This document shows, piece after piece, positions 6,418 through 23,849 of a DNA stretch of 25,062 nt. The notes below the pieces were generated by a model. The model saw only the letters and a program-made list of their open reading frames with translations. It made no database searches and was not told where the DNA came from. Numbering within the stretch: the stretch's first letter is position 1; each line of letters starts with the position of its first letter. The position numbers were made by a program, and so were the translations under genes. Source of the DNA: a virus. The DNA lies in IMG/VR virus record IMGVR_UViG_3300010885_030042, positions 1-25,062 of that record. One strand, 5' to 3'.

Positions 6418-6425
6418 TGTGCAAA

Positions 6426-6458: not shown

Positions 6459-6459
6459 T

Positions 6460-6909
6460 TTAGCCTTCGTAGGTTGCTGAGTTAGCACCGTGTTCTGCAC
6501 ATTCTACCCTAACACAATAGCAACGACCGTTGGATTCTTTGCGTATCAATTGATTGGCAAAATGAAATGCGTGTTCAGCAAACTTCTCTGCACCTACTCC
6601 GTTAAAGACACGAATCTCTACCAAATCCAATGCTTGCAATTCTTCAAACTTGGCCAAATGTGGATCTCGTTTATCCAATGCCAACTTGTGGTCGAAGTGA
6701 TCTTCTAACCAGGCTTTTAGTTCTTTGAGCCCGCCAAAATCCACAGCCCAATTCTTATCATCCAGATGATCACATCCAAATGTGAATGTGAACGCTAGAC
6801 TGTAACCATGTAGCAAGTGACAATGTGAATGATCAGCATTGGGCTGACGGAATACAGCACTCAGGCCAATGTTGTGTCCGTAGTGCTTTGTTGAATAATA
6901 TTTTGCCAT
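6460..6909 (-). CDS. queD: 6-pyruvoyl-tetrahydropterin synthase/QueD-like protein
   Basis: The 149-residue T-fold protein belongs to the PTPS/QueD family, which makes 6-carboxy-tetrahydropterin in the preQ0 (7-deazaguanine) pathway. Catalytic-type residues are in place: C30 in CHLLHGY, D73-H74 in FDHK, WAVDFGGLK (54-62) and the late glutamate in VRVECAEHG (E135). Two classic zinc ligands are altered. The first histidine aligns with F20, and HGH is HGY (Y36), while extra histidines (H12, H27, H29) are nearby. I recall this HGY variant from alphaproteobacteria and marine phages. The gene has its own sigma70 promoter and an AGGAG (6917-6921) seven bases before ATG. It probably serves DNA modification together with FolE and DpdA. 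Confidence 0.82.
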   Translation of the reverse strand: MAKYYSTKHYGHNIGLSAVFRQPNADHSHCHLLHGYSLAFTFTFGCDHLDDKNWAVDFGGLKELKAWLEDHFDHKLALDKRDPHLAKFEELQALDLVEIRVFNGVGAEKFAEHAFHFANQLIRKESNGRCYCVRVECAEHGANSATYEG

Positions 6910-6928
6910 TGTTGTTCTCCTATGTTAG

Positions 6929-6957
6929 ATTATAGCATAGGCGGCAGAGTTTGTAAA
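6929..6957 (-). promoter_or_regulatory. Sigma70-type promoter of the QueD-like gene
   Basis: The minus strand reads TTTACA (-35, 6957-6952), 17 bases, then TATAAT (-10, 6934-6929), about 20 bases before the ATG at 6909. This is near consensus for host RNA polymerase and suits early expression. The expected start site falls just before the AGGAG ribosome-binding site, so the leader would be very short. Confidence 0.75.
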
Positions 6958-6988
6958 GCGGGATGACACCAAAGACCGCTGTTTTAAA

Positions 6989-7552
6989 TTACCAAGGAGC
7001 CTTCTTACTATCAAGGCACATAATAGGAATCTCAAATGATTGCTCAAAAACCCAAGGAATCATATTGCATACAGTATCAATACTTATTTGTCTATCATGT
7101 GCATCATTGCTAGTTTTCAAGTGACCAAGCATAAGATGACATGTTTTAAATCTAGCTGTATTTAGATTTAAACTTAGATCTCTTAGATTTAATTTTGATT
7201 GTTTGTAATTTGGCGATCCAAGACTGTCGTATTCGTGGGTGCTGCCTATGTTTATCACATCGCAATATTTTACGGATTGGTTGCATAGTTCTAGTAATCG
7301 GCTTTGAATTCCAGCATCAATATAACTGGCATTAACAAACATATTGTGTTTAGAAAATTGTTCTTTAATTTTTAATTCAAGTAACGGATCGGTCAAATCC
7401 CACCCATTGGACTTGTGTATAAATGTAGCATTAGGATATATTTTTTTTATACCATTGGCAATGGTAAACGGCTTATCTGGATTACCGGTGCAAATTACTC
7501 GACGAGTAGACATAAATTTTTGTCTTAATTCAAATAATAGTTGTTCTTGCAC
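6989..7552 (-). CDS. Short-chain dehydrogenase-like protein, short or divergent
   Basis: The 187-residue product looks like a reduced Rossmann-fold SDR. VICTGNPDKPFTIANGI (19-35) stands where TGxxxGIG is expected but lacks the standard glycines. MFVNASYI (71-78) resembles the NNAG strand, NIGSTHEYD (101-109) carries the serine, and YKQSK gives Y116/K120. The frame begins with GTG 7552-7550, overlapping the radical SAM stop as TAGTG, which fits coupled translation. An internal ATG at 7513 just before the Rossmann strand is the alternative start, without a clear ribosome-binding site. With a degenerate cofactor loop the enzyme may not bind NAD(P) normally. It probably works with the radical SAM protein encoded just before it. 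Confidence 0.6.
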   Translation of the reverse strand: MQEQLLFELRQKFMSTRRVICTGNPDKPFTIANGIKKIYPNATFIHKSNGWDLTDPLLELKIKEQFSKHNMFVNASYIDAGIQSRLLELCNQSVKYCDVINIGSTHEYDSLGSPNYKQSKLNLRDLSLNLNTARFKTCHLMLGHLKTSNDAHDRQISIDTVCNMIPWVFEQSFEIPIMCLDSKKAPW

Positions 7553-8541
7553 TATAGTTCAACCAGATTGGATTGTACACAGCCTTGACGGCAACGCATT
7601 TTACATAGGTGATCAAGTCTTGGACTACCTGTTTTGCCTTTTTCTATTACTAGTTGTTTCCATTGATTTATTAACGCATTACCTTGATCTAAATTGATCT
7701 GATCTATAGACATTCGGTCGTACCATTCGCTTTTATTTTTCCAAAGGTCAGATTTATAAAATGTTTTAGGGTTGCGGATCCAGTCGCAAGGAAGATAGTA
7801 GCCCTCGCTAGTTACTACCTTAGCTGTGTCACATCGAGGCTCGATTACTATAGGATCATTATTGTTAAATGATTCTTGCCATGCATAGTTATTTTCTACT
7901 AGAGTTGTATTTGGAACTAATTCGTCATTACCATACCGGTGGGTTTTGATTGCAAAAAATTCTGCTCCTTTGGATTCTGCAAAAGTTTTTATATCTTGAA
8001 GAACATCTTGATTAAATGCAAATGTAATAGTCTGCCATTTAACTCGAGCTGGACTTTTCGTCATAATATCAACAGCAGTCATAATACTTGACCACTCAGC
8101 ATTTTTTCTATAAATGTGATTGGTATCTTCTAATCCATCTATTCCAAATACAATTGTGTCGTCCTTGGTTACTAGATCTGCTAGTTGCAACCAAAATTCT
8201 TTTGTTTTGCGGCTGCCGTTGGTTCGTATATCAAATTTTTTATGTCTAAATCGGTTGATGAAGTCAAACAACTCTGGATAGTATATGCAGTCGCCGTAAT
8301 CACCACATAACAATAAAGTTTCAATTTTTTGACCAGCATCACAATCCATAAATCGTTCAAAAGAATCGATAGATAAATCACTTTTAACAATTGGTCTTTT
8401 AGTTAGTTCTTTCCAAATCGTTCGTGGGCATGCCGGGCATTCTAGCGCACATCTATTAGTTAGTTCTACGTGTAAACGAGACAAATTATTTTTTCTTAGC
8501 CGGTGTTGATTTTCTAGCCGATTTGGTTTGAGTAGCATCAC
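7552..8541 (-). CDS. Radical SAM protein with SPASM-like C-terminal cysteines
   Basis: In the 329-residue protein the radical SAM cluster motif CX3CX2C is C31, C35 and C38 (RCALECPACPR), preceded by the usual LHVELTN strand. DIRTNGS (104-110) and FGIDGLED (132-139) are barrel landmarks. The C-terminus holds C237, C252 (LPCDW), C313, C317 and C321 (CKMRCRQGC), a pattern like the auxiliary Fe-S cluster of SPASM or twitch proteins. QueE is shorter and lacks this C-terminus. The ATG at 8541 overlaps the 68-residue gene by 56 bases and has AGGTG only 1-2 bases away. A TTG at 8484 just after that gene's stop would also keep the whole radical SAM domain, so the start is uncertain. The substrate is unknown. 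Confidence 0.82.
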   Translation of the reverse strand: MMLLKPNRLENQHRLRKNNLSRLHVELTNRCALECPACPRTIWKELTKRPIVKSDLSIDSFERFMDCDAGQKIETLLLCGDYGDCIYYPELFDFINRFRHKKFDIRTNGSRKTKEFWLQLADLVTKDDTIVFGIDGLEDTNHIYRKNAEWSSIMTAVDIMTKSPARVKWQTITFAFNQDVLQDIKTFAESKGAEFFAIKTHRYGNDELVPNTTLVENNYAWQESFNNNDPIVIEPRCDTAKVVTSEGYYLPCDWIRNPKTFYKSDLWKNKSEWYDRMSIDQINLDQGNALINQWKQLVIEKGKTGSPRLDHLCKMRCRQGCVQSNLVEL

Positions 8542-8692
8542 CTGCGTTAATTAATTGTTGTACAGTATCAAGTGCTTCGGCGGTAGCAAACATCTGCCAC
8601 AGACGATTGTCAGTGGCTTCGATCGGTGTAAATTCAAGCGTGATAGCTTGACCATTTTTTAATTCTAAAACAAAGGTTCTTTTCTGGTTCAT
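8486..8692 (-). CDS. Small conserved-type protein with lysine-rich tail, unknown function
   Basis: I do not recognise this 68-residue product. The N-terminal part (about 1-30) alternates polar and hydrophobic residues as in beta strands (TFVLELKNGQAITLEFTPI). A helical segment follows (about 34-51, LWQMFATAEALDTVQQLI), and the tail (about 57-68) is rich in K, S, T and A and ends in KKK, which could bind nucleic acid. The ATG is preceded by a weak AAGAAAG. It lies 23 bases after the small membrane-protein gene and its end overlaps the long form of the radical SAM gene. A precursor-peptide role for the radical SAM enzyme is conceivable but unsupported. Confidence 0.6.
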   Translation of the reverse strand: MNQKRTFVLELKNGQAITLEFTPIEATDNRLWQMFATAEALDTVQQLINAGDATQTKSARKSTPAKKK

Positions 8693-8715
8693 TATTTCTT
8701 TCTTGATAACTTTAT

Positions 8716-8874
8716 TTATTTTTGTTCAGCGGGTGCATTGGGTTTTGTTGGGGGCATGACCTGATCTATAGCCGGGTTGATATAAGGTTCAACTACAGTT
8801 TTTTGAGCAGTGCCCCACCCGATTGCACTAAAAAATCCAATCACTATCCATGTTCCAATAAGCTCAATGATCAT
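8716..8874 (-). CDS. Small membrane protein, 52 residues
   Basis: This short frame encodes one hydrophobic helix at residues 2-19 (IIELIGTWIVIGFFSAIG) followed by a proline-rich polar tail that ends EQK. It is likely a single-pass inner-membrane protein with its tail on one side. Its ATG overlaps the HIT gene's stop as ATGA, the same coupled arrangement as its neighbours, which is the main reason to call it real. No family is recognised. Small membrane proteins of this kind in phages are often involved in lysis control or superinfection exclusion, but nothing here tells which. Confidence 0.65.
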   Translation of the reverse strand: MIIELIGTWIVIGFFSAIGWGTAQKTVVEPYINPAIDQVMPPTKPNAPAEQK

Positions 8875-9239
8875 TTTTGATAGTTGCCTTTACCCGGTAT
8901 GGTATTACGCACACCGCCCACTGGATCTTCGACATCGCCAGCTCTGCGTGGAATAAGATGCACATGCGGATACATCACAGTCTGTCCTGCGGCTGTACCT
9001 GAATTGTAACCAATATTAAATCCATCACATTCACCAGATTTAACCATGTGATTGCCATCAGCTAGTGCGTGTTCCATGGCCTGCACAATCCAATTAGGAT
9101 TGTCATCTTTGGGCACATACAACCTATGCCCCGGAGTACATGGATACTTGTCTAAGTATACCACAATCAATGGACGATCTTTTATCTTGTTGTCCCATGG
9201 TGCTATACCTGCTTGTTGTGCATCAAATAGTGTAGTCAT
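8871..9239 (-). CDS. HIT-family nucleotide hydrolase/transferase-like protein
   Basis: The 122-residue protein is a histidine-triad member. NIGYNSGTAAGQTVMYPHVHLIPRR (about 75-99, split here as NIGYNSG and TVMYPHVHLIPR) and the closing GGVRNTIP match bacterial Ap4A-hydrolase-like HIT proteins. The usual H-x-H-x-H becomes Y90-P-H92-V-H94: the presumed nucleophile H92 and the last histidine remain, but the first is tyrosine. I chose the ATG at 9239 because a longer frame from 9287 would run into the lipoprotein gene, whose stop ends at 9241. Family members cleave dinucleotide polyphosphates or nucleoside phosphoramidates. It could manage signalling nucleotides during infection. The substituted histidine makes the activity uncertain. 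Confidence 0.8.
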   Translation of the reverse strand: MTTLFDAQQAGIAPWDNKIKDRPLIVVYLDKYPCTPGHRLYVPKDDNPNWIVQAMEHALADGNHMVKSGECDGFNIGYNSGTAAGQTVMYPHVHLIPRRAGDVEDPVGGVRNTIPGKGNYQK

Positions 9240-9240
9240 A

Positions 9241-11859
9241 TTAATTAAATGTATATCTGTATTCTGCCATAGCACGATACTTGCCATCTTGAGTTGCTAT
9301 GCCGGATAATCTATATCCATTGTTACGGTCGATAATTCCGGTATATAAGACTCGAGCATATGGAGTAGTTTGACTCACAACGCCCATCTTAGTGTTAGTA
9401 TATACTACATTGCCTGCATTGTCAACACTGGTTGGTATAGTAGCAGTAATATTACCACTCAATACTACCGGTTTTACGCCTACATATAATCCAAGATCGC
9501 CAAAACCTTTCTCGCTGTATCTATATCCAGTTTCTGCCCAGGCCGCTGTGATTGGACTTACATTGGTCACTATGCCAGATCTAAAATTAGTAGTAGTGCG
9601 CATGACAGCACCTTGGATACTAAATCCATCTTTGGCATAAGTCATCACTTGTTCTAATGTTCCACTGCCATTGACTGATCCAAACGACCCACTGAAGTTT
9701 AACCACGGATTTGAATTAAGATTGGTATATTGCATACCAGTGTAGAAATTGCCATTTCTATACATTACAGGCAGTCCAAAACTCCATTGTGTGGGTGGAG
9801 TTGCACCTAGATACAGACCTTGATTACCTGATTGGTCGCCAAACTCCTTGGGTTGGATTGGTGCACCAATTGTGTTTCCTTGGTTGCGATTCTCGACACC
9901 CATTCGCATAGGCATGCCTTGCGGATTATACACAGTATTGGTATTGCCGTTTAACATGTATTCGGTATGACTGCTGAGATTATATTGGTCGATATGCTCA
10001 GTATTGTATGTGAAACTGTTTGGGCCAACATAGTTGGTATTGCCAAAGTTTAGGCTATAGTTACGACCTATTGAATCAAATGCCTGCATTTGATTGAGGC
10101 CAGACATGTTGACTCCAGCAATACCGCCTGATAATGCAGTTAGACCAGATCGAGTTGCTACGCTCAATGATCCAATTGGATTCATCATCTTATCTGGATT
10201 TAATACCAAACCGGTTCCAGCATCGGTCATGTAACTACTGGAAGTTTGTGCCAAGACCTGATTAACTTGGGCTGAGCTCATCCAGGGCCATGTTGCTTTG
10301 ACCGCGTTAAATGCGGCCTGTGCTGTGGTAGTGTTTAAATTGGCCCCCACTAGACTCAAGTAAGTGGCCATACGCATTGGTGCATTGGCATCAGTCTGAT
10401 ATTGCAGTGTGGTTACAAGATAAAGATTTTTACTGGCATCTTTGACCACGGCCACTTGGTTGCCTCTATTACCGGTGCCAGCAATTAAATTAGCCTGGCT
10501 TGCAAAGTCGGTGATGATATTTTGAAATGCGGCCACATACGGACCGGTGGCACTTTGTTTTATTAAAAACTGTGTGCTACTGTTTGAAGATCCAGACCAA
10601 TCATTTCCACTTACAATCATACTTTGAAAGCCGTTGCCAAGATCTACAAACTGTGGACGATAAGTGCCATAAGTGTTGGTGTTGTAACCTTTGAGCATGG
10701 TAGTGGTCACGTCAGCAAAATTACCTGCACCATCATTTTGTAAAAATTGTATTGCTGATTGTTTTACACCGCCGCTGGTACCAGGCGAGCTAAACAAAAT
10801 TAAACTTTGATTGCCACTGCTGTTAAAATCATAGTTTATGACCAAATAGTTGTGACTACTGTTGCCCAGGATCGGTGCTGGTAAATCTTTTGCCCAATTG
10901 ATACTGAGTTTATTAGTGGTTGAATCTATAGCCCAGGTGTACATTTTAGTGGTGCTACTTCCGCAACCGTTCCACGCAGTGACACCAACACAGGCTCTAC
11001 TATCGGTGGCCACCAGTTGCGTAGAGCCGTTGTTCAAAAAGTCTGCGGCCGCTATGCTACTTGTGCCCCAAAATAAATCGTTGTTGCCTCGGGCCTGATA
11101 TACCGTAAAACCGTTTACACGATTGTTCATCAAGAATGTGGTGTTGGGACCGTAGTCGGTAATAATAGCATCCATCCATCCGGTTTTGGTCAAGTCAGCC
11201 ATTGTGGTGCCGTGCCCCCATACTTGAGCACCAAGTTCTATAGTGCTACGAGTAAATTGACTTCCGGTATTTCGAAACAACCAGGCTTGACTGGACCCAG
11301 TTGGTCCGTAGTAGTTCATGTCAGTAGAAGCACTGACCAACATGTCAGTTCGTCCGCTCTTAAAAAAGTCAGCAAACTGGATATTAGGATCTGTTCCTAA
11401 AATTGAGTTATTGCCACCAACAAACCACGTGGCAGTGTCGTTGACAAAACTTCCATTTTTCCAAGTGAACAACTGTATGCTATTATTAACCCACTCGCTA
11501 CTGGTGGCTGGTTGGCTCATGCGCCCGGCTACGATCATGCTGTCAGCGCCATTACCGGTCAAGTCGTTTACTACATATTGTTGACTTACCGCAGTCTTGG
11601 TTGAATCGCTTGCATAAGGATTAAATGTGCTAACATGAGTAGGAGTAGCAAATGGAACTGTGCTTCTAGTACCAGGGGTGAACCCATAATTGGCCAGCGT
11701 TCCAGAACTATAGTAAGGTGTATCGGGTTTGATGTACGAAGGACCGCCGCCACCTCCACCTCCACCTCCGCCGCCACCGCCACCACAGGCCGATAATAGG
11801 AAGACAGTGGATACTGCTAGGGCTATAGCACTACGTCTGAGTAAGACTTGTTTTTTCAT
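9241..11859 (-). CDS. Large outer-membrane lipoprotein: poly-Gly linker, FG-GAP-like propeller, beta-rich C-terminus
   Basis: The 872-residue product starts with a lipoprotein signal (KKQVLLRRS, a hydrophobic core, then LLSAC with lipid cysteine C25) and a run of 14 glycines. Residue 26 is G, so outer-membrane sorting is expected. The next 400 residues or so contain repeated acidic FG-GAP/VCBS-like units (DLTGNGADSMIVA, ADFFKSGRTDMLVS, ADLTKTGWMDAIIT, ADFLNNGSTQLVAT, YDFNSSGNQSLILF, VDLGNGFQSMIVS), consistent with a beta-propeller. The last 200 residues or so alternate like a barrel or autotransporter-type domain and end AEYRYTFN. It has its own sigma70 promoter but no clear Shine-Dalgarno sequence. 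It looks like a host-surface or adhesive protein carried as a phage cargo gene. I recall similar C-termini on peptidase-like marine phage proteins, but no protease motif is visible. Confidence 0.8.
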   Translation of the reverse strand: MKKQVLLRRSAIALAVSTVFLLSACGGGGGGGGGGGGGGPSYIKPDTPYYSSGTLANYGFTPGTRSTVPFATPTHVSTFNPYASDSTKTAVSQQYVVNDLTGNGADSMIVAGRMSQPATSSEWVNNSIQLFTWKNGSFVNDTATWFVGGNNSILGTDPNIQFADFFKSGRTDMLVSASTDMNYYGPTGSSQAWLFRNTGSQFTRSTIELGAQVWGHGTTMADLTKTGWMDAIITDYGPNTTFLMNNRVNGFTVYQARGNNDLFWGTSSIAAADFLNNGSTQLVATDSRACVGVTAWNGCGSSTTKMYTWAIDSTTNKLSINWAKDLPAPILGNSSHNYLVINYDFNSSGNQSLILFSSPGTSGGVKQSAIQFLQNDGAGNFADVTTTMLKGYNTNTYGTYRPQFVDLGNGFQSMIVSGNDWSGSSNSSTQFLIKQSATGPYVAAFQNIITDFASQANLIAGTGNRGNQVAVVKDASKNLYLVTTLQYQTDANAPMRMATYLSLVGANLNTTTAQAAFNAVKATWPWMSSAQVNQVLAQTSSSYMTDAGTGLVLNPDKMMNPIGSLSVATRSGLTALSGGIAGVNMSGLNQMQAFDSIGRNYSLNFGNTNYVGPNSFTYNTEHIDQYNLSSHTEYMLNGNTNTVYNPQGMPMRMGVENRNQGNTIGAPIQPKEFGDQSGNQGLYLGATPPTQWSFGLPVMYRNGNFYTGMQYTNLNSNPWLNFSGSFGSVNGSGTLEQVMTYAKDGFSIQGAVMRTTTNFRSGIVTNVSPITAAWAETGYRYSEKGFGDLGLYVGVKPVVLSGNITATIPTSVDNAGNVVYTNTKMGVVSQTTPYARVLYTGIIDRNNGYRLSGIATQDGKYRAMAEYRYTFN

Positions 11860-11891: not shown

Positions 11892-11920
11892 ATTATAACA
11901 AATGGCTATTTTTGGGTCAA
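11892..11920 (-). promoter_or_regulatory. Sigma70-type promoter of the lipoprotein gene
   Basis: The minus strand reads TTGACC (-35, 11920-11915), 17 bases, then TATAAT (-10, 11897-11892), about 32 bases before the ATG at 11859. The -35 box overlaps the TGA stop of the ferredoxin gene (11919-11917). The lipoprotein can therefore be transcribed by host polymerase independently of the FolE-FdxA operon. Confidence 0.75.
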
Positions 11921-12243
11921 TCTTGTTTTAAATACTGTAGTTTATTAGCAACACCAGACCATTTGGCCGCATCGGGCAAGCTATCCTTGCTTTTGGTTAT
12001 TGGTAACCATATTTTGCTTAATTCAGCATTGATTTCAATAAACTGTTGTTGGTCTTCCGGAACATCATCATCAGCATAGATAGCATTCTCGGGGCACTCC
12101 GGGACACACACCGCACAGTCAATACACCCATCTGGATCGATTGCAAGAAAGTTTGGCCCTTCTACAAAACAGTCCACCGGACATACATCTACACAATCAG
12201 TATGTTTGCAAAGAATACAACTTTCAGTTACCACATAAGTCAT
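11917..12243 (-). CDS. fdxA: Seven-iron ferredoxin, FdxA/Azotobacter FdI type
   Basis: The 108-residue protein follows Azotobacter ferredoxin I closely along its whole length. Its cysteines sit one position later because of the initial Met. C9, C17 and C50 would hold the [3Fe-4S] cluster, and C21, C40, C43 and C46 the [4Fe-4S] cluster, with C25 and C12 as the conserved free cysteines. The C-terminal [19 protein letters not shown] and LPDAAKWSG extension is also kept. The ATG at 12243 gives an ATGA overlap with the 74-residue gene; a longer in-frame start at 12264 would extend further into that gene. It is a small soluble electron carrier. It could feed the radical SAM enzymes and the RfbH-like dehydrase, whose own reductase is absent. 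That pairing is inferred. Confidence 0.93.
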
Positions 12244-12464
12244 ACCCGTTGCCCACGCAACCACTCATCAACACGGGTTTCGGCTTCAGCTTGGCTGATA
12301 GCCGGCACAGTAATTTCTACCTGCTCGCCCATGACATGGTTAAGCGTATAAGGAATTGGTGTACCGCAAAACACAATATCTTCCATGTCGCGGAACACAG
12401 CAAACTCTTGTAGATTTTTTGCTCGATCAATTGCCTCTGCGGCTAATATGTTGATATTGTTCAT
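12240..12464 (-). CDS. Small protein of unknown function, 74 residues
   Basis: I do not recognise this product. It is acidic to neutral and soluble, with a helical start ([18 protein letters not shown]), a short central part with one cysteine ([17 protein letters not shown]), a beta strand ([10 protein letters not shown]) and a C-terminal helix ([12 protein letters not shown]). ATGA overlaps join it to the 47-residue gene upstream and the ferredoxin gene downstream, so it is a genuine member of the FolE operon. No metal-binding cluster or membrane segment is visible. Confidence 0.65.
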
Positions 12465-12604
12465 TCTTCTCTCGCTTTGTGTTTGGCAATAGCATCTGCG
12501 CTACGCTGTTGAAAATCTACCATACTATGATAGCCCATTTGATAGCATGGACAATGTTTGCCCAAGATCCAACGAGCTAGTTTAACTCTTAGCTGTTGAA
12601 TCAT
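12461..12604 (-). CDS. Very small protein, 47 residues, unknown function
   Basis: The frame opens with an ATG that overlaps the folE stop (ATGA, 12604-12601) and closes with a TGA that overlaps the next start (12464-12461), so it exactly fills the space between them. The product has a basic amphipathic start (IQQLRVKLARWILGKH), a CPC motif (C18, C20) with H17 and H26 nearby, and a charged helical end ([10 protein letters not shown]). The perfect fit at both junctions is the strongest evidence that it is translated. Function is unknown; the C-P-C and histidine cluster could bind a metal. Confidence 0.7.
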   Translation of the reverse strand: MIQQLRVKLARWILGKHCPCYQMGYHSMVDFQQRSADAIAKHKAREE

Positions 12605-13410
12605 CTTGGGGCAAAGTCTTGTTGCAGTTTAATATTGTCCATGAACTCTTTTTTAGTTCCTGGGTCTGTGTTGAAAGCACCTTTTAATACTGTAGTCTGT
12701 GTCAGACTTGAGTGTGCCATGATGCCACGATTCTCACAACAACCATGCGTGGCCTGTATGTACACACCCACGTTCTCTGAATCAGTTGCCCGCATTATTT
12801 CTCTTGCGATATCGTTACATAGTTCTTCCTGAAGTGTGCCACGACGAGCACACCACTGAGCGATCCTAGTATATTTAGACAGGCCAATAAGTTTGTTAGC
12901 CGCAATAATTCCGATGTATGCCACACCTGATACAGGCTGGTGATGATGACTACACATAGAACGCAGTTCACTACGAACCACAAGCATACCTTCATATCTA
13001 TCCGCTGAATCATTTGGAAAAGCTGTTGCATCTGGTGCTGGATCATATCGACCTCCCATAATTTCGTTGTAATACATCTTAGCAAGACGACGTGCCGTGC
13101 CCTTTGAATTAGGATCCGTTTCGCGATCGATAAGCAAGGTATCTAGTACCCGTTCAAAAGCTTCAGTAGCTTCGTTGATCAAGATCTCTTTGTCACCATC
13201 GTGCAAGTAATCACTGATGTTGTCGCCGGCCCAGAAACGTTTTTTATCACGTTTCATGTTAAAACGGATAGCATCAGCTAGATTAGCTTCTTCATAGCCT
13301 TTGTCACCAATCACAGCATCTTCATAGCCAGGATGGTACGGTGCTTCTTCTACTAGTTTATTTTTAAGATTTTCTATTTTTTGTTCTTCAGGTGATGCAT
13401 ATTTGGCCAT
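12601..13410 (-). CDS. folE: GTP cyclohydrolase I
   Basis: This enzyme converts GTP to 7,8-dihydroneopterin triphosphate, the first step of both folate and 7-deazaguanine (preQ0) synthesis. The 269 residues include the zinc site MCSHHHQPVSG (C153, H156) and THGCCENRG (H222, C224, R228), plus the conserved GLSKYTRIAQWCARRGTLQEEL and the C-terminal SSLTQTTVLKGAF. The N-terminus is longer than that of the E. coli enzyme (222 residues) by part of the first 80 residues or so, which are charged. The ATG has CGGAG seven or eight bases before it and a perfect sigma70 promoter. In a phage with QueD-like and DpdA genes, 7-deazaguanine DNA modification is its likely purpose. Confidence 0.95.
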   Translation of the reverse strand: MAKYASPEEQKIENLKNKLVEEAPYHPGYEDAVIGDKGYEEANLADAIRFNMKRDKKRFWAGDNISDYLHDGDKEILINEATEAFERVLDTLLIDRETDPNSKGTARRLAKMYYNEIMGGRYDPAPDATAFPNDSADRYEGMLVVRSELRSMCSHHHQPVSGVAYIGIIAANKLIGLSKYTRIAQWCARRGTLQEELCNDIAREIMRATDSENVGVYIQATHGCCENRGIMAHSSLTQTTVLKGAFNTDPGTKKEFMDNIKLQQDFAPR

Positions 13411-13467: not shown

Positions 13468-14106
13468 TCAATTGAATTTTATTTTTCTCGGTGCTGAAAT
13501 ATTCAGAGTCCTACAATCTGGGTAGTTGTAAAATTTTGGTTGTTTGAGCAACTGACCAGATTTCAACAAATTTAATCCTGCTATACAGTGCTCTGGTTTC
13601 ATGAAATAATGAAATCCCAATTCAAAATCAACTTGTTCAGCCCATGGACTATAAGTCAAAAGATCTCGGCCATCACTGCGCATGCGACTGGCCGATTGAT
13701 AAAGTTCTGTATTATCAGTCAACAAACACCCACCTATGCCTATTTCCAAAGGTTTGGTACGTCCAAAACTCAAGCATTGTATTTGTCCAGCACGATACAT
13801 ACCGGGTTCAAAAAATCTTGCACTGTCCCAAATACGGCTACCTTGAAATTGATATTCTCCTGACCATAGTTCTGACGTGAGTTCGTAAGGCACAGATAAC
13901 TTTTCCAAGATCATAGGCACACTGAGATAGGTATGTGCTGGAAATGTTACTGTACTTTGATCATGGGTCAATCGAAAAGCAATTTCAATAGCATGGCTAC
14001 AGCAGTCAGTGATTACACAATAAGGAGCACCTGTAAACTCAGCAATAGCTTGTTCAAAATCTATCACAGCATGCCATGGATTTTTATAATCCTCGAGCTT
14101 AATCAT
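13468..14106 (-). CDS. Miniature DegT/DnrJ/EryC1 aminotransferase-like protein
   Basis: The 212-residue protein covers only the large-domain half of a DegT-fold sugar aminotransferase (families are usually 360-400 residues). Landmarks are VITDCCSHAIEIAFRL (31-46), in place of the TNSGTAAL cofactor-phosphate loop, FPAHTYLSVPM (55-65), an aspartate before the lysine (D94, WDSARFF) and SFGRTKPLEIGIGG (113-126), where K118 is the expected PLP lysine. The small C-terminal domain is missing although the frame is intact. It overlaps the 2OG oxygenase gene upstream by 4 bases and is the last gene of the carbohydrate operon. It may be a sugar aminotransferase or dehydratase that acts as an obligate oligomer, or a non-catalytic sugar-binding relative. 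Confidence 0.72.
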   Translation of the reverse strand: MIKLEDYKNPWHAVIDFEQAIAEFTGAPYCVITDCCSHAIEIAFRLTHDQSTVTFPAHTYLSVPMILEKLSVPYELTSELWSGEYQFQGSRIWDSARFFEPGMYRAGQIQCLSFGRTKPLEIGIGGCLLTDNTELYQSASRMRSDGRDLLTYSPWAEQVDFELGFHYFMKPEHCIAGLNLLKSGQLLKQPKFYNYPDCRTLNISAPRKIKFN

Positions 14107-14606
14107 TTTTGTATTCCGGTGATTTGAATAGTGTATCGAGGTTCTATACCAAAATTACCGGCAAAATGTGGAACATCGTAATTCCAGGTTACATAATTGC
14201 CTGCTTTCCAATTTACAAATGGTTGACCATCTATTTCAAAATAGTGACCACTTTTCCAATCCTCTAAGAAAACAACTGTACGCCAGATTGTGGATGTATC
14301 TGTTATATTGTAAATCTTTCTATAGGTCACATAGTGATCTTTATGCGTAGGCAATGCTTCGCAGATTTTCATTTTTGAAAAAGATAATTCTGCATGCTCC
14401 CAGTTGTTTAATGTTAAAAATGATTTAGCATATTCGGGCATAGGTCCAGTTTTTGTAGCATATATGCCGCAGTGAAGGTCTAGATTGGTATAACCTTGAG
14501 CAGACCACTCGTCAAGCAATCCTTGATTCACTGGATAGTACTGATAGCCCAATGTTTTAAAGCTATCATCCCACCAAGGAATTACGTGATCAAAGTGGTA
14601 TTGCAT
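14103..14606 (-). CDS. 2-oxoglutarate/Fe(II)-dependent oxygenase-like protein
   Basis: The 167-residue protein has the double-stranded beta-helix signature. Metal ligands would be H88 and D90 in LPTHKDH and H147 in YDVPHFAGN, with R157 (PRYTIQITG) binding 2-oxoglutarate. Spacing matches small aspartyl-hydroxylase or phytanoyl-type phage oxygenases. It should hydroxylate or otherwise oxidise a small substrate or protein side chain; the substrate is not evident. It shares one base (TAATG) with the two-domain oxygenase gene upstream and four with the DegT-like gene downstream, so it belongs to the same pathway. Unlike its larger neighbour, it keeps the full H-x-D...H triad. Confidence 0.78.
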   Translation of the reverse strand: MQYHFDHVIPWWDDSFKTLGYQYYPVNQGLLDEWSAQGYTNLDLHCGIYATKTGPMPEYAKSFLTLNNWEHAELSFSKMKICEALPTHKDHYVTYRKIYNITDTSTIWRTVVFLEDWKSGHYFEIDGQPFVNWKAGNYVTWNYDVPHFAGNFGIEPRYTIQITGIQK

Positions 14607-15754
14607 TATTCTAAACCTAGTTCTTTTCTTAATTGAGACACTGGATTACTCCAATCATTGGTAAACGATCTTAGATATTCAATCTTGCCTAGATCCTCCG
14701 GTGTTTCCAACACAAGTTCTTCGTTGGCAAAATGTAATCGGCATTTGTGTTCTAATGCACTACGCATGATGGCTTGACGATGTTCTGGGTTGTCAGGCAA
14801 ACTAAACATACTAAACAATAACAAGTGGTCTGTATGCTTGATCAAATATTCCATGTGTGCATAATTTAATCCTTCGTTTTCTCCATGCGCATATGGAAAC
14901 TTATAATTTCTTGAGTTACAATAGTTCTTGACTGCCAAAGTTTGGAAATACAAATCAATATACTTGGTCTTGATACCTTCGAATTCACCGTAGGTTACTA
15001 CGTTTTCGTGTGGTAAAATTTCCACCACTTGATTGTATTTTTTATCAAATAACTTTCTAAAATATGCCCCAGGCCATTTACGATGTGCTTGACCATCTTT
15101 TAACAATAGACGAATATCAATACTAACTCGTGTCTTGTTAGTTCTATTAGGAATATTGCCATGAATATGTTCTTGGAAGAACAAATGTGCTTGTCCGGGA
15201 TGTAGGGTTACTGGCCAAGAATTTTCAACACAGTAGTCATTGAGTTTTTCGTAGCTCCATTTTTCAAGAACCGATTCTCTGGTAACACGACGACTGATAT
15301 CCAAATCCATAATTTGCATAGTGTTTGATTCAAAACAATCAGTGAATGGCATCCAGATAGTCCTTAATCCCAGACCGTTACCGACCCAACGTCCTTGATG
15401 GTATAGTAGTACTGCACCAAATTTATCCTGGTCAGGAGGTAAAATTCTTAAATTGCCAAACTTTTGTATCAATACTTCGCGATTTAGTTTAGGTACAATA
15501 TTTTCTTGCACCATTGCATCGTAGTAATCGCAAAAATCAGTTTTTAATAATTCGCGACTGGCATTATTCATAAGTTGCTGAATGTCGTCTTTTGCAACCA
15601 CCTCGTGAATGGTATCAAGTGTTTTAACTTCTGGATAAAACTTTTGTATAACTTTGAGTACAATATCGGGCAACGGATATTTTTGTAAATCGTAATTTAA
15701 TGTTTGATTGTCAAATATTTGCTGGGTATGATCTAGCGGGGTATTATATGTCAT
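14606..15754 (-). CDS. Fusion: 2OG-Fe(II) oxygenase-fold (HxG variant) plus LIC12192-like domain
   Basis: The 382-residue protein joins two families that I know as separate genes of the bacterial 'sporadic carbohydrate cluster'. Residues 1-235 or so match its 2OG-Fe(II) oxygenase: TIWMPFTDCFESNTMQI (132-148), EHIHGNIPN (195-203) with metal ligand H198, and TRVSIDIR (208-215) with R209. Where relatives have H-x-D, this one reads YHQGRW (H119, Q120, G121), so the acidic ligand is missing. Residues 262-365 or so match LIC12192-family proteins (FQTLAVKNYCNSRNYKF, LLLFSMFSLPDNPEHRQAI, HFANEELVL). H-x-G or H-x-A is what radical halogenases have, but loss of activity is the other reading. It overlaps the radical SAM gene by 4 bases. 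Confidence 0.75.
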   Translation of the reverse strand: MTYNTPLDHTQQIFDNQTLNYDLQKYPLPDIVLKVIQKFYPEVKTLDTIHEVVAKDDIQQLMNNASRELLKTDFCDYYDAMVQENIVPKLNREVLIQKFGNLRILPPDQDKFGAVLLYHQGRWVGNGLGLRTIWMPFTDCFESNTMQIMDLDISRRVTRESVLEKWSYEKLNDYCVENSWPVTLHPGQAHLFFQEHIHGNIPNRTNKTRVSIDIRLLLKDGQAHRKWPGAYFRKLFDKKYNQVVEILPHENVVTYGEFEGIKTKYIDLYFQTLAVKNYCNSRNYKFPYAHGENEGLNYAHMEYLIKHTDHLLLFSMFSLPDNPEHRQAIMRSALEHKCRLHFANEELVLETPEDLGKIEYLRSFTNDWSNPVSQLRKELGLE

Positions 15755-17529
15755 GATATTTTTAATAGGTTTTTGATTAACCCATTTCTCCTTAATGTAT
15801 AAAAATCCTCAGTCGGTTCTTTCAAACGCGACTCAACGGTGTACTGGGTCTCTTTGATTTTGCCTGAATTAATATCAAATCCAGCATCAATATTATAAGG
15901 GTATTGTTTATTAAAATCTATTATAAATGAATCCTGTAACTCGGTCAACTCGTTTGGTATATTGGTTAGTGTTGCTAGCACTTGCTCTGCCAATTTTGCG
16001 GCTTTTTGCTTGTTATCAAATAGAAATTTATAAGAAGCCGAATGCAGTGCATGGCCTCCAACAAAGTTTTTAGGCAATTGACCATTTTTAAGGTAATTTT
16101 CCACAATGCTTCTTAACCAAAGGTAGTGATCTTGAAACGTAATATCATTATTTATAGCTCGATACAATGCATTGTAAAATATTTCATATGATATGCCAGC
16201 ACAATTTCTAGCATATTTGGCCATGATTTGTGTGTAACCTGTGATATGAAATTGTATGATCATCCAGGTGTACATATAACATTCAATCATGTCTTCGGTA
16301 CTCATACTAGCAGTGGCATTGACAATTTCTGTGTATTCAGGAACATTGTCGCTGGATTGATCTAGGTTCATGTAGTCTTTGACATTTATACTTTGTATGC
16401 CGTATTTTAATCGACTCGCGGCAGACGCCAGTTCACTATTTTCTAATAATTGTGCAAACCAAATATCAATGCTTTGATGTTGTCCCAGCTCTAGTAATTG
16501 ATTGAGACCACTGATCCAAGTTTGTTTGGTTTCATCGGGTAACCCAAGGATAACTTCAGTATATGTTCCTATGCCGTGTTGTTGACTTAACTGCATAAGA
16601 CGGCCAATATTATTTACATCCATGTTTTTACGTTTGATAGTTTCCAAAGTAAGGTCATTCATACTTTGCACACTTACTGTAACACCACGTCCGTACGGGC
16701 CAATAATTTTAGCTATTTCAAACACAATGTCTGTACTATTCTTGGCATATTGTAAATTTACAGATTCTATTTTAGACTCGTCGGCTGCTGCTCTAATTAA
16801 TCTGGCTACTTCAAGATCTCGTTCTTTAAATATTCCAAAGTTGGCATCAGTGACAAACACATACGCCACGTTGTGTTTCTTGACCCATTCCAAATCGCCT
16901 GCCAAGCGTTCCAAGCCAAACTTTTTAACCTTACTGTAAGTCACACCGCCCCAATCACAGAAGGTGCATGCATACGGACAACCACGATTTGTTTCCAAAC
17001 TCATGGCCCACACAACGCCGGGATTTTCTTTGATGATTGAGTCAAATATGCCTGTAGTATATGGACTGGGTATATCCAAGTGCTCTAGTCTATGTTGTGG
17101 ATATATTGTGTCCGGAGCTTGCTCAGATTGCACAGTACGCAACAGTTTTAAAAAACTTTCTTCGCCTTCAGCAATCATAATACTGTCAATGAATTTGTGC
17201 TTGAGCATTGATGCACTGGTTTGCGCACCACCAAATGCTATCACGCAGTTGGGCCAACGTGCTTTGATGGCTTGTGCCATGGCCAGACAATATTGTTCGT
17301 TCCACATGTAACAACTAAAACCACAAAGTGTGGGATCTTCAATCTGATCCAACACAGTATCGATTGGTTCTCTTTTGAAAAAGATACGACTTAATTTAAA
17401 ATTGTTAGTGATGTCTTTGAATTGTGCGGCATAGGTCCACACGCAGGCCGCGCTATACGGAAGCCAGTAGTTTTTTTCTTTTCTAAACTCAACAGCATAC
17501 TGTGGTTGAAAAAGATAAACATTTTTCAT
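15751..17529 (-). CDS. B12-binding-domain radical SAM enzyme
   Basis: The 592-residue protein has a cobalamin-binding-like Rossmann domain (about 1-130; CGFSCYMWNEQY, VIAFGGAQTSA and IMIAEGEESF are typical of the strands) and then a radical SAM barrel. The cluster cysteines are C184, C188 and C191 (RGCPYACTFCDWGG), followed by VTDANFGI and VSVQSMNDLTL. The canonical DxHxxG cobalamin motif is not visible, so B12 may be bound base-off without it or not at all. I chose ATG 17529 because it forms ATGA with the preceding stop; an in-frame ATG at 17550 adds seven residues without matching family sequence. It is a member of the carbohydrate operon, and C-methylation or a rearrangement of a sugar is a reasonable inference. 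Confidence 0.85.
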   Translation of the reverse strand: MKNVYLFQPQYAVEFRKEKNYWLPYSAACVWTYAAQFKDITNNFKLSRIFFKREPIDTVLDQIEDPTLCGFSCYMWNEQYCLAMAQAIKARWPNCVIAFGGAQTSASMLKHKFIDSIMIAEGEESFLKLLRTVQSEQAPDTIYPQHRLEHLDIPSPYTTGIFDSIIKENPGVVWAMSLETNRGCPYACTFCDWGGVTYSKVKKFGLERLAGDLEWVKKHNVAYVFVTDANFGIFKERDLEVARLIRAAADESKIESVNLQYAKNSTDIVFEIAKIIGPYGRGVTVSVQSMNDLTLETIKRKNMDVNNIGRLMQLSQQHGIGTYTEVILGLPDETKQTWISGLNQLLELGQHQSIDIWFAQLLENSELASAASRLKYGIQSINVKDYMNLDQSSDNVPEYTEIVNATASMSTEDMIECYMYTWMIIQFHITGYTQIMAKYARNCAGISYEIFYNALYRAINNDITFQDHYLWLRSIVENYLKNGQLPKNFVGGHALHSASYKFLFDNKQKAAKLAEQVLATLTNIPNELTELQDSFIIDFNKQYPYNIDAGFDINSGKIKETQYTVESRLKEPTEDFYTLRRNGLIKNLLKIS

Positions 17530-18446
17530 GCAGACAGAATTTTTTTCCAAACATCAATGGTATAGTCAAGCCCGTCATCAAGTGTGACTTTTGGAGCCCA
17601 CCCAAGTGTCTTGGTAATAAGATTGTTATTGCTGTTTAGCCAGTAGATTTCTCCATGTCGCTTGGGCTTGGTATTCCAATTAATTTGACCATTCCATCCA
17701 ATTTTCTTAGCAATCAGATTGGCATAGTCAAGAATCTTGATAGGTTGATCTGGGCCAATGGTAAAAATCATTCCTGAATTGCATTTTTCGTAATTGTTAA
17801 TTACTGTAACCCATGCATCCAATAAATCAGTTACAAAAATAAAATTACGATATGGATCGCTATACCCTAAATTAATTTCGTTGGGATTTTTTAACATTTG
17901 AGTAATAATTTGTTCAGTAACAAAAAAATCATTATCTCGACGTCCATATGCATTGGTTTGTCTAATAGCTGTGAATGGAAAGTCTTGGCTACGATTCATG
18001 TACTCAAGATATTTTTCAACGGCATATTTGGCCACAGCATAAGGAGCATTAGGATGGGGCGGCGTATTTTCATCAAATGCCACGTGAGTAAGAGGTTTAC
18101 CCAATGTTACTATTTCATCACTAATAGATTGCCAACCATACACTTCCATGGTGCTGGCAAAAACAAAGTTTTTAAGATTGCTACATTTTTTGGCGGACTC
18201 TATTAAATTAACACTGCCTATATAATTGACTTCACTAAAACTAATTTGTTCATAAAAACTTTTTTCTACTTCTGTGCGAGCAGCCAAATGCACAACAATG
18301 TCAGGGTTAAATTCCTGCAATTCACGGTCCACAGCGTCGTGATCAGTTAAATCACTAACCATATTGTGTATTTGATTTGATTTGTTAAGTAAGGGTACTA
18401 AGTGTGATCCAATAAACCCGCTAGATCCAGTGATAAAAATTTTCAT
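17526..18446 (-). CDS. NAD-dependent epimerase/dehydratase (extended SDR)
   Basis: The 306-residue nucleotide-sugar SDR has ITGSSGFIGSHL (5-16), HLAARTEVEKS (53-63), the serine in FASTMEVYGW (96-105) and the catalytic pair Y136/K140 in YAVAK. The 4,6-dehydratase triad TDE is replaced by TME, so it is more likely an epimerase, reductase or decarboxylase-like member. IRQTNAYGRRD marks the substrate loop. The ATG follows a TATAAATA octamer (18451-18458) with only four bases between and has no visible Shine-Dalgarno sequence. It overlaps the radical SAM gene downstream by four bases. It and GalE are two separate SDRs of this operon, so more than one sugar conversion is implied. Confidence 0.85.
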   Translation of the reverse strand: MKIFITGSSGFIGSHLVPLLNKSNQIHNMVSDLTDHDAVDRELQEFNPDIVVHLAARTEVEKSFYEQISFSEVNYIGSVNLIESAKKCSNLKNFVFASTMEVYGWQSISDEIVTLGKPLTHVAFDENTPPHPNAPYAVAKYAVEKYLEYMNRSQDFPFTAIRQTNAYGRRDNDFFVTEQIITQMLKNPNEINLGYSDPYRNFIFVTDLLDAWVTVINNYEKCNSGMIFTIGPDQPIKILDYANLIAKKIGWNGQINWNTKPKRHGEIYWLNSNNNLITKTLGWAPKVTLDDGLDYTIDVWKKILSA

Positions 18447-18461: not shown

Positions 18462-19427
18462 CTATAATTGTTGTATTTTATTTCCATACCACGCCCATGC
18501 ATGTGAAATCATGTCAGTTAAATTAAACTTTGGTTTCCATTTACTTACTGCCATAAACTTGCCAGCATCGGCAGTTAGTACAGCAGGATCACCTTCCCGT
18601 TGAGGCCCGTGTACTACCGAGATATCTTTACCGACTATTTGTGAAGCTAATTGTATAACTGCAAGATTACTGTTGCCAACATTGGTGCCAAGATTGTAAA
18701 CGTCACTGGGGATAGAAGGATCCATGGCCAATATATGTGCTTCGGCAAGATCCTCCACGTGTATATAATCTCGAACACAAGTTCCATCATCGGTAGGATA
18801 ATCAGTGCCATACAAGGTAAAGTCGGTATTATTTTTAACGGATTCTAATACACGGGCAATAATATGAGTAGCACCCGGAGCCTGCCCATGTCGGGCACAA
18901 CTGTCAGCACCACAGGCATTAAAATAACGGAATGACACAAAATCTAACCTGTAGGCTTTTCGGTAGCTTTGTAACATCCAGTCAATCATTAACTTACTTT
19001 GACCGTATGGGCTAATAGGTTCAGTAGGATCTATTTCTTGTACCGGAGTCATTATAGGATTGCCGTAGGTTGCAGCACTTGAACTAAAAATAAATCTAAC
19101 TCGTTTATCGTGATTTTTAACCAGGTAGTCTAACAAAATTTTAGTCTTGGTAAAGTTATTGTCGTAATATTCTTGGGGGTTTAGCACACTGGGACCAACG
19201 AGGCTGGTACCGGCACAATGGATGATAGCATCGGGACAAAATCTTTTAATTGAATCTAATCCCAACTCGGCTGCATAATCTCCGGTGTGCCACTGACACG
19301 GAACCGGAATTAAATTTCCAGGCGGCATTACTCGATCGATAGCCAAGACATCGTGGCCAGCATCCACTAGCTTTAATAAAGTTTCGCCACCAATAAATCC
19401 TGCGGCTCCTGTGACCACTACTTTCAT
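18462..19427 (-). CDS. galE: UDP-glucose 4-epimerase, GalE-like
   Basis: The 321-residue protein shows the GalE pattern: VTGAAGFIGGE (5-15), CAGTSLVGPSV (71-81), FSSSAATYGNP (114-124), Y141/K145 in SPYGQSK, FRYFNACGAD and the hallmark YGTDYPTDDGTCVRDYIHVEDLAEAH. These enzymes interconvert UDP-glucose and UDP-galactose (or the GlcNAc forms) with tightly bound NAD. Its ATG shares one base with the stop of the GT-B glycosyltransferase upstream (TAATG), so the donor-making enzyme and a transferase are translated together. It is slightly shorter than E. coli GalE (338 residues). The sugar it epimerises in this pathway is not certain. Confidence 0.92.
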   Translation of the reverse strand: MKVVVTGAAGFIGGETLLKLVDAGHDVLAIDRVMPPGNLIPVPCQWHTGDYAAELGLDSIKRFCPDAIIHCAGTSLVGPSVLNPQEYYDNNFTKTKILLDYLVKNHDKRVRFIFSSSAATYGNPIMTPVQEIDPTEPISPYGQSKLMIDWMLQSYRKAYRLDFVSFRYFNACGADSCARHGQAPGATHIIARVLESVKNNTDFTLYGTDYPTDDGTCVRDYIHVEDLAEAHILAMDPSIPSDVYNLGTNVGNSNLAVIQLASQIVGKDISVVHGPQREGDPAVLTADAGKFMAVSKWKPKFNLTDMISHAWAWYGNKIQQL

Positions 19428-21613: not shown

Positions 21614-22125
21614 TTGATTATTTCGTCCTTGGTATATTTAGACCAGTCAGTAAACACTGATCGATTTTGTAAGTTGTGCAAGCTATGACACCAAACACCC
21701 GGATTGGTTGCCGCAAAGTCCTTGTCGTCAATTTTGAGTGTAGCATGATATCCAAACTGTTTGATATAGGGTAGTTTGACCGAAATCATTGGAATAAAGT
21801 TGTTGAACTCTACCAGACCGCTTTCTAATAGACCTTCTGCTTGTGCATGATCTAAATCTAATGTGCATAACCATTTAGTCTCTAGACAGTCTTGGATCAT
21901 CATTTCCCATTCGCGCCAAGCATCACCATCGTTCTTGTCAAGAGCTGGAAAACTTTGATTTGCACCAAAGTAGATATGTTCACAATCATTATTCAGTGCT
22001 TCTTGACGAATGATTTGTGAATCTTGTACTCCTACTACAAATAGTGTGCGTAATCCAAATGCTGGAGTGTGTTCAACTTCAGTTCCTATAAAGAAACTAA
22101 CGTTGTTATGACCATCTCTATTCAT
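21610..22125 (-). CDS. Conserved phage protein next to DpdA, 171 residues, unknown function
   Basis: The start MNRDGHNNVSFFIGTEVEHTP and the stretches HIYFGANQSFPAL (46-58), WLCTLDLDHAQAEGLL and HATLKIDDKDFAATNPGVW make this recognisable as a family that I have seen in T4-like cyanophages, always without a function. Alternating strands and helices suggest an alpha/beta fold; acidic residues at DLDH and KIDDKD could bind metal. Its ATG shares one base with the DpdA stop (TAATG), the tightest possible coupling. That makes a DpdA partner, for example an enzyme preparing or tailoring the base, the first hypothesis to test. Confidence 0.75.
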   Translation of the reverse strand: MNRDGHNNVSFFIGTEVEHTPAFGLRTLFVVGVQDSQIIRQEALNNDCEHIYFGANQSFPALDKNDGDAWREWEMMIQDCLETKWLCTLDLDHAQAEGLLESGLVEFNNFIPMISVKLPYIKQFGYHATLKIDDKDFAATNPGVWCHSLHNLQNRSVFTDWSKYTKDEIIK

Positions 22126-23849
22126 TATACTTGATCTTGTTCTAGTTGATCTAATCGGGCCAGTTGGTCCGGGCTGAACTCTTCTTCTAATTGTACACTA
22201 TCTTCATCGTTGTTGTCAACATCGGCTTCTTCAAACAAGGCATTAAATTGGCTGTGTGCGTTTTTGGCTTTTTTACCTTTGAATCCACGTGTGCCCACGA
22301 TGTCCATCCAGTAGCGGTCATAGTGTTCTATGATAGCCTCAGCTTCGTCACGATCTGGAGTGGCAAATATGGCATCCACAATGTCCTTGAATCGGGCATG
22401 GTCGCCATTTTGATTCCACATCATGGCTGGCCAGGTTCCTGTGTCATACTCGCGATTGGCTCTTTGAACTGCTTCCAAATGCATCCACACATTATGCCCC
22501 ATCAACAATGCATAGCTGAAACTGTCCCACGAGGTCTTACCTTCCTTGCCAATTTTGTTTAACATACCGGGTGCATAATAGCAAATGTCTTTCATTTGTA
22601 ATTGTAAACTAATTGGACTTTCATCAAAGTGATCAACAAGACCATCGGCAACCACAGCAGGACCAAATGGGCGAGTATCGTTGGCATACTTCTTGTCATC
22701 CACAATAGGACTCATACGATAACACCACTTGTCATTGTGTGGCAGGTCAATATGGTGATACACCTGCCCGTTGGCAGTGGCCAGAAACGGACTGGCACAG
22801 TCAAACGAAATTGTAAAACTTGGATTGACATACTTGCGAACAGCACGTTGGATATCAGTCAACAACACTGCCCACTCTAATTTACTTGTGCCCAAGAAGT
22901 GCATCCAATCATGTATGCCTTCTTTGAGTAGGCCATCGTGTCGTAATGCCACAAGTCTACGCAATACAAGATGTACATCACACATGTTCTGTCCACCCAT
23001 ACTCCAACCGTCAAAATGGGTATCTGGATACAAGTTAGGATCACAATAGTGCTTCATGGTGTCGTACCAACGATCGGCATCAGCATGGTTAGCACCTTGT
23101 AGAACATTCAGCACTTTCATACCACCATTCTTAGCACCCTTACGATGACGCATATAGTAATCATTGTTATACTTGGTAGCTGCTACTGCTTCTTCTAATG
23201 TGGTAATACCACACTTGTCGCTGGCATTTTTGTCATGTATGACCCAGGTTGGTATGTCTAAGGTCATACCATAATCTGAAACACCATCTAACCACCTAAC
23301 CACCGCTTCTCGTTTCTTCTGTGCAGCATCTAGCAAGTTCTGATAGTTTTTAACATGATCAATCTTGACATACTTTTTGTTGCCATTTTTATCATGCTTA
23401 GGGGTACCATCTGGTTTGAGATCCAGCACATGTTCAACCCCCTTGGCCTTGAGTTCGGCCATCTTGGACAAGACCGCTGGGCTGGTTGGATCACGCCACT
23501 CGCCCTCCCACAAGCCTTTAGCAATCTGGAATCCACCCGAGTCGCCCAGCATTAGTGTGCCAGGCTCACGATTACGAACCATATCTTCCGACCAGTCCTG
23601 TTTGGTTAGATCTAAGTTGGCATGACCACCCGAATACAATGACCACTTGTATGGAAACAGACTTTTGGAACTATTAAGCCAGTTCATCATCTCCATGTCC
23701 TTGATACCTGCGGGCATACGGGCCGGGTCTACATAAGGACCGTTTACAGGATCACGTTGCTTACCTACGTAAGTGGCATAGAAGCCGCTGATAGCTGGCA
23801 AGAATACAGCGTAATCTTTTTGCTTGGCTGTGAGATTGTCTTGAGTCAT
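22125..23849 (-). CDS. dpdA: DpdA-like DNA 7-deazaguanine transglycosylase (TGT fold)
   Basis: The 574-residue protein shares the order of active-site motifs of tRNA-guanine transglycosylases: LGDSGGFQIA (101-110, D103 as the acid/base), LDIPT (197-201), VLQGANHADA (249-258) in place of the 'VQGG' base-binding loop, GWSMGG (281-286), HFLGTSK (317-323) and SFDCASPF (348-355, with D350 as the expected nucleophile). The CxCxxC...H zinc site of the tRNA enzymes is not seen. This fits DpdA, which exchanges guanine in DNA for a 7-deazaguanine. Length exceeds bacterial TGT (about 375 residues) because of insertions and an acidic C-terminal tail. It starts three bases after the clamp stop without an obvious Shine-Dalgarno sequence. 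Confidence 0.85.
   Translation of the reverse strand: MTQDNLTAKQKDYAVFLPAISGFYATYVGKQRDPVNGPYVDPARMPAGIKDMEMMNWLNSSKSLFPYKWSLYSGGHANLDLTKQDWSEDMVRNREPGTLMLGDSGGFQIAKGLWEGEWRDPTSPAVLSKMAELKAKGVEHVLDLKPDGTPKHDKNGNKKYVKIDHVKNYQNLLDAAQKKREAVVRWLDGVSDYGMTLDIPTWVIHDKNASDKCGITTLEEAVAATKYNNDYYMRHRKGAKNGGMKVLNVLQGANHADADRWYDTMKHYCDPNLYPDTHFDGWSMGGQNMCDVHLVLRRLVALRHDGLLKEGIHDWMHFLGTSKLEWAVLLTDIQRAVRKYVNPSFTISFDCASPFLATANGQVYHHIDLPHNDKWCYRMSPIVDDKKYANDTRPFGPAVVADGLVDHFDESPISLQLQMKDICYYAPGMLNKIGKEGKTSWDSFSYALLMGHNVWMHLEAVQRANREYDTGTWPAMMWNQNGDHARFKDIVDAIFATPDRDEAEAIIEHYDRYWMDIVGTRGFKGKKAKNAHSQFNALFEEADVDNNDEDSVQLEEEFSPDQLARLDQLEQDQV

Follow-up and report, generated by a model that had tools for sequence, protein, structure and literature searches.

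A viral protein family with HxG in place of HxD at a predicted two-histidine Fe(II)/2OG site, fused to a LIC12192 domain

We found that the stretch of DNA analysed here (the window, a viral record from IMG/VR, 25,062 bases long) carries a gene for a PhyH-type protein in which the usual HxD motif reads HxG. Judging from conservation, the HxG proteins constitute a new, well-defined two-His subfamily within an established superfamily of enzymes, and they are apparently active. Our best explanation, offered tentatively and with slightly less than even confidence, is that the gene encodes a phage-carried, active PhyH-type Fe(II)/2OG enzyme with a two-His iron site, fused to a LIC12192 domain, that oxidises a nucleotide-linked or glycan sugar.

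The fused gene and its HxG motif

The minus-strand reading frame from 15754 to 14606 is open, and the plus strand over the same stretch contains many stops. The following features were assigned to the gene and its product:

14606..15754, minus strand: fused two-domain gene, 382 aa, with an HxG Fe(II)/2OG-type domain and a LIC12192 (TIGR04323-like) domain
15050..15658, minus strand: PhyH-type double-stranded beta-helix domain, TIGR04324-like, residues 33-235 (NCBIfam, model, Foldseek)
14672..15001, minus strand: LIC12192 (TIGR04323-like) domain, about residues 252-361, with a predicted resolvase-type fold (NCBIfam, separate model, Foldseek)
15392..15400, minus strand: H119-Q120-G121, HxG where HxD is usual (MAFFT and hhalign, gap-free against canonical HxD)
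15161..15175, minus strand: Q194-E195-H196-I197-H198, the predicted distal iron-binding His with the acid E195 three residues earlier (column comparison)
15128..15130, minus strand: R209, the predicted 2OG-binding Arg, in an RxS motif (22/22 HxG, 27/27 HxD)

Both NCBIfam matches of the window protein fall under the family cut-offs. Residues 33-235 match TIGR04324 with E 1.2e-24 and 87 bits (cut-off 150), and residues 267-361 match TIGR04323/LIC12192 with E 4.5e-13 and 49.2 bits (cut-off 55), a threshold that the homologue L003 passes with a score of 58.8. H119-Q120-G121, H198-G-N and T-R209-V-S, the residues named in the original prediction, are all present in the ORF, in the contexts FGNLRILPPDQDKFGAVLLYH119QG121RWVGNGLGLRTIWMPFT and FFQ194E195HIH198GNIPNRTNKTR209VSID213IR. 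As in PhyH-type enzymes generally, R209 is presumed to be the Arg that binds 2OG.

Two scans of the viral collection yielded about 80 relatives at 36-81% identity, and a viral alignment was made of the window protein and 52 others (n = 53, identity down to about 36%). All 53 proteins carry H-[QK]-G-x-W-x-G-N-G, with GLRT[VI]W[MLV]PFT coming after the HxG site; the distal H-G is likewise fixed in all 53, and T-R is found in every protein that extends that far. The presence of the motif in 53 viral proteins rules out a sequencing error or an accident of one genome. The predicted absence of the metal-binding Asp is real and defines the clade; the alignment to canonical HxD proteins is gap-free. 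No relative was found when annotated phages were searched by sequence or when GTDB genomes were searched with the first alignment. Gly121 is encoded by all four codons (GGA, GGT, GGG and GGC), and dN/dS was 0.04-0.14 in the seven pairs with estimable dS, figures from which the comparisons of the window with L002 and with L025 are excluded by saturation at synonymous sites. The use of four codons at such dN/dS values points to selection on the residue and excludes drift.

The HxD relatives and the fusion partner

Of 385 genomes sampled from one bacterial class, that of the Pelagibacter-binned genome, 28 contained members of TIGR04324 scoring above the cut-off. (A contig binned as a Pelagibacter MAG, L091, carries the fused HxG gene and has an SDR gene much like the one in the window; the contig probably belongs to a phage and was binned together with the host.) The 27 canonical members compared have H-[ASTC]-D at the same columns, ungapped, in the context HADVWSGDSPFEVVxWLPL, and the H-T-D given for relatives in the original prediction was essentially right. 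In the StrG-like proteins from Azospirillum and Mycetohabitans the motif reads HRD; a literature search on StrG function found nothing informative. Profile-profile comparison of the HxG clade with TIGR04324 by hhalign gave 99.4% (E 1.9e-21) with no gap at the motif. HMMER gaps HQ-G against the HQDG of PtlH by one residue, as if Asp had been deleted instead of substituted, but substitution is preferred because the alignment to the nearest family is ungapped; Asp is absent either way.

The HxG rows form a single clade (support 97/92), in which some branches are long and deeper placements are unsure. The clade takes in two bacterial genomes of the KSB1 group, where a free-standing HTG protein is encoded next to a separate LIC12192 gene (at 7180-7935 and 7932-8348, respectively, in L090). 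Since the HTG protein is free-standing there, loss of the Asp is independent of the fusion and the two were separate events; most simply, the Asp loss came first. A scan of the viral collection with the KSB1 protein found no relative.

In 19 of the 20 genomes bearing TIGR04324, the TIGR04323 gene lies directly behind it; the exception, G148, carries a divergent member. What is an operon pair in bacteria is thus a single protein in the phages, suggesting that the two fused domains act together. The original prediction had correctly described a fused LIC12192-like domain but had called the arrangement unusual, whereas fusion is the rule in the phage family: all 37 fused-type phage homologues of alignment A4 are two-in-one proteins matching TIGR04323, and fusion as a rarity is ruled out. 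When modelled alone, the LIC12192 domain gave a pLDDT of 86.8, and almost all of the top Foldseek matches to this model in the PDB were serine-recombinase catalytic domains (best E 2.5e-4, TM up to 0.65 by query length). We found no conserved Ser at the recombinase-nucleophile loop, so recombinase activity is not expected. On the strength of the model, we read the domain as a repurposed resolvase-type fold, which gives the LIC12192 partner a predicted fold. Our literature search on LIC12192, TIGR04323/4 and sporadic carbohydrate clusters found no published function or structure.

To compare the active sites, columns were tabulated for 22 HxG members and the 27 canonical HxD members. Neither branch varies at His119, His198 or Arg209, and the conservation of both His and the Arg under the dN/dS values given above indicates that the catalytic machinery has been kept. 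H198 and Q194 are present in 22/22 HxG members, although the Q194 column is also Gln in 19 of the 27 HxD members and hence is not specific to HxG. The HxG clade departs from the canonical branch at many otherwise invariant columns, with S103R, D109Q, D121G, D/E126N, S/T127G, F/Y129G, V131R, V132T, V138T, K144N, F/Y147Q, N195E and N213D. Of these, S103R, D109Q, D/E126N, V131R, V132T, K144N and N195E look like a concerted pocket change toward a new substrate or new chemistry and not like decay.

A relative that is inactive or not an oxygenase, serving as a redox-inactive partner that binds sugar or regulates, would fit both the absence of the Asp and the loss of Lys144, which is fixed in the HxD branch. 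Such a role is nonetheless quite improbable, as the two His, the Arg and the pocket around them do not vary, dN/dS is low and the HxG gene is retained across differing gene neighbourhoods; an inactive relic can be rejected on the dN/dS values and the invariant His/His/Arg. Of the two possibilities raised in the original prediction, an inactive protein is accordingly unlikely (His, His, Arg and Gly are invariant under purifying selection), and a halogenase-like enzyme is allowed, with the proviso that the HxG enzyme AspH is a hydroxylase.

The HxG clade has gained two acids, one near the distal His and one near the Arg. Position 195 is Glu in 20 of 22 HxG members, with one Asp and one Gln (L078), and is thus acidic in 21/22; the canonical column holds N/T/S and is acidic in 0/27. 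D213 is present in 22/22. These counts could be taken to mean that the acid has simply moved, with E195 (or D213) ligating the iron instead of Asp121 in a normal carboxylate triad with conventional chemistry. We regard this as very improbable. D213 is ruled out as a replacement iron ligand by its presence in HxD relatives (StrG-like, L123), while E195 is Gln in L078 and lies at -3 from the distal His, a position that is Asn in the halogenase CytC3 and His in PtlH and is no known ligand position. From the sequence comparison, E195 is the sole candidate for compensating the lost Asp.

Gene neighbourhood and possible substrate

The immediate neighbours of the HxG gene are a B12-radical-SAM gene on one side and a small 2OG-oxygenase-like gene on the other; further sugar-related genes lie beyond them:

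13468..14106, minus strand: short DegT/DnrJ/EryC1-type aminotransferase-like protein (Pfam E 4.7e-12; same cassette in relatives)
14103..14606, minus strand: small 2OG-oxygenase-like protein, H-K-D motif (cyanophage S-SCSM2R has a protein, annotated as 2OG-Fe(II) oxygenase, that is 34% identical to it over 99%)
15751..17550, minus strand: B12-binding radical SAM protein (KedN5-like, below cut-off; NCBIfam E 7e-50; adjoins in near relatives)
17526..18446, minus strand: nucleotide-sugar epimerase/dehydratase family protein (SDR; Pfam Epimerase E 7e-44)
18462..19427, minus strand: GalE-type epimerase (TIGR01179, 296 bits, over cut-off)

The small 2OG-oxygenase-like protein had no Pfam or NCBIfam match. 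A 412-aa ORF in the window, without a family match, is one that we take for a glycosyltransferase. The block found in close relatives is DegT-(small 2OG)-SDR-B12rSAM-HxG-FolE, and in the divergent relative L069 the HxG gene adjoins a WbuC cupin gene and a GDP-mannose 4,6-dehydratase-like gene. Canonical bacterial genes lie near a CDP-glucose cytidylyltransferase and a 4,6-dehydratase (L126) or, in L127 and L128, near split ThDP enzymes that are PDH-E1-like or transketolase-like, which the window parallels with its own E1-alpha/beta-like genes. Because of this gene context we read the enzyme as sugar-directed, and we infer that its substrate is a sugar of a surface or virion glycan. Against a sugar enzyme, several phages (L003, L013) have no evident sugar-pathway gene right beside the HxG gene, which there adjoins an ORF of ~1,940 aa that looks like a virion structural gene.

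Several other genes of the window were observed in passing. A PDH E1-alpha/beta-like pair (673-3142, minus strand; 206 and 177 aa, both under normal length) lies about 11 kb from the HxG gene and beside a gene for an RfbH protein (434.7 bits, cut-off 423); together, these may point to a phage pathway for a branched or 3,6-dideoxy sugar. FolE (12601-13410), a QueD-like protein (6460-6909) and a 574-aa ORF (22125-23849) are all encoded on the minus strand. The last had no Pfam, PHROGs or NCBIfam match and reads, in our judgement, like a relative of tRNA-guanine transglycosylase/DpdA, so the three perhaps serve 7-deazaguanine DNA modification. Also on the minus strand are a ferredoxin gene, fdxA (11917-12264; 159.5 bits, cut-off 135), on a viral contig that also has radical SAM genes, its product being a possible electron donor, and an 872-aa ORF (9241-11859) without an NCBIfam match, whose start, MKKQVLLRRSAIALAVSTVFLLSACGGGGGGGGGGGGGG, combines a lipoprotein-like signal with a subsequent run of 14 Gly. 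In cyanophage S-SCSM2R (L089), positions 3510-10263 encode glycosyltransferases, an aminotransferase, a radical SAM protein, a 2OG oxygenase and a gene product annotated as inosamine amidinotransferase, a cluster resembling aminocyclitol or aminosugar pathways.

Possible chemistry and comparison with known iron enzymes

An AlphaFold2 model built from 38 natural sequences had a pLDDT of 91.6 and a pTM of 0.89. Foldseek matched it to the PhyH-type 2OG enzymes ThoJ, CurA halogenase, SptF, GriE, PtlH, SnoN and SyrB2, and a viral structure library returned remote PhyH-type matches only. Pfam PhyH was matched by 16 of the 38 members at E<=0.1 (best 6.2e-8). Among PDB profile matches, the hydroxylase PtlH ranked first (E 0.027) and CytC3 second (E 1.3); a PDB search by single sequence gave no match. 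The predicted double-stranded beta-helix fold, combined with the two His and the 2OG Arg, places the protein in the PhyH-type 2OG superfamily.

Most characterised two-His 2OG enzymes are halogenases. In a radical halogenase, Gly121 would open the third iron position to chloride or bromide, and a Cl-Fe(IV)-oxo species would chlorinate a sugar or nucleotide-sugar C-H, as in SyrB2, CurA, WelO5 and AdaV. HxG/A serves as a diagnostic halogenase signature in genome mining (PMC11186838). In addition, the CurA halogenase occupies Foldseek ranks 2-6 and SyrB2 is also matched, 4 of 38 members weakly match TIGR01762 ('chlorinating enzyme', best E 0.0012), and, where AspH has Asp at -4 from the distal His, the HxG members have Gln (22/22), which is neutral and donates an H-bond. 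However, the same Gln is common in the HxD branch, the acid gained beside the distal His could repel an anion, and Foldseek does not separate halogenases (CurA, SyrB2) from hydroxylases (ThoJ, PtlH, GriE), which appear at equal scores, with a hydroxylase as the best profile match. Human AspH has an HxG...H site yet hydroxylates its substrate and does not halogenate it; D721, which precedes its distal His by four residues, holds a water that fills the third site (PMC10947486, PMC13168262). The motif alone therefore cannot decide the reaction, and we consider halogenation a serious but somewhat doubtful alternative.

We slightly favour oxidation over halogenation, and AspH makes hydroxylation by a two-His site feasible. 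In such a sugar-oxidising enzyme, H119 and H198 would hold Fe(II), R209 (with S211) would anchor 2OG, and water would take the third facial position vacated by Asp121Gly, steadied by Q194 and/or E195 in the manner of D721 in AspH. O2 and 2OG would then give an Fe(IV)-oxo species that abstracts a hydrogen from a sugar C-H, and OH rebound (or a second oxidation) would yield a hydroxylated or oxidised sugar. The placement of E195 at -3 and not -4, the neutral Gln at -4 and the replacement of E195 by Gln in L078 count against a two-His hydroxylase. The fuller halogenase proposal, in which a virus-encoded family with a repurposed resolvase-fold partner fused to it would modify sugars or nucleotide sugars and let phages halogenate a surface or virion glycan, strikes us as unlikely; if the product were halogenated, phages would be making halogenated sugars.

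To our knowledge, two-His Fe(II)/2OG enzymes are few, and halogenation versus hydroxylation is not yet readable from sequence. The sizeable viral HxG clade and its HxD sister family share a fold, a partner gene and a kind of gene cluster, and so offer a natural before-and-after pair for the effect of the lost carboxylate.

Among the closest known systems is TIGR04324 (sporadic carbohydrate cluster 2OG-Fe(II) oxygenase, SpoChoClust_2), with which the HxG proteins share homology over about 190 residues, the two His, the 2OG Arg, W-x-G downstream of the motif and the LIC12192 partner. In contrast to the canonical members compared, all of which are HxD, the clade has HxG in 22/22, scores 68-101 bits against the cut-off of 150 and shows about a dozen further pocket changes. 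The second domain matches TIGR04323 (LIC12192 family, SpoChoClust_1; E 4.5e-13), which is fused in the phages but is a separate gene directly behind TIGR04324 in the 19 canonical bacterial genomes and directly behind the HTG gene in the two KSB1-group genomes. PtlH (1-deoxypentalenic acid 11-beta hydroxylase) has HQDGFYIG...RTFWIPL, resembling HQGRWVG...RTIWMPF, but it is an HxD enzyme with a terpenoid substrate, matched at E 0.027 only. The Fe(II)/2OG radical halogenases (SyrB2, CurA-Hal, CytC3, WelO5, BesD and AdaV) share the two-His HxG/A...H site, and SyrB2 and CurA also match the predicted fold; they differ in having no significant sequence homology to the phage protein, which carries an acid three residues before the distal His. 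Human AspH (aspartate/asparagine beta-hydroxylase) shares a natural HxG...H two-His site but is absent among the Foldseek matches listed, acts on a protein and has its acid at -4 from the distal His, where the phage family has Gln, with Glu at -3.
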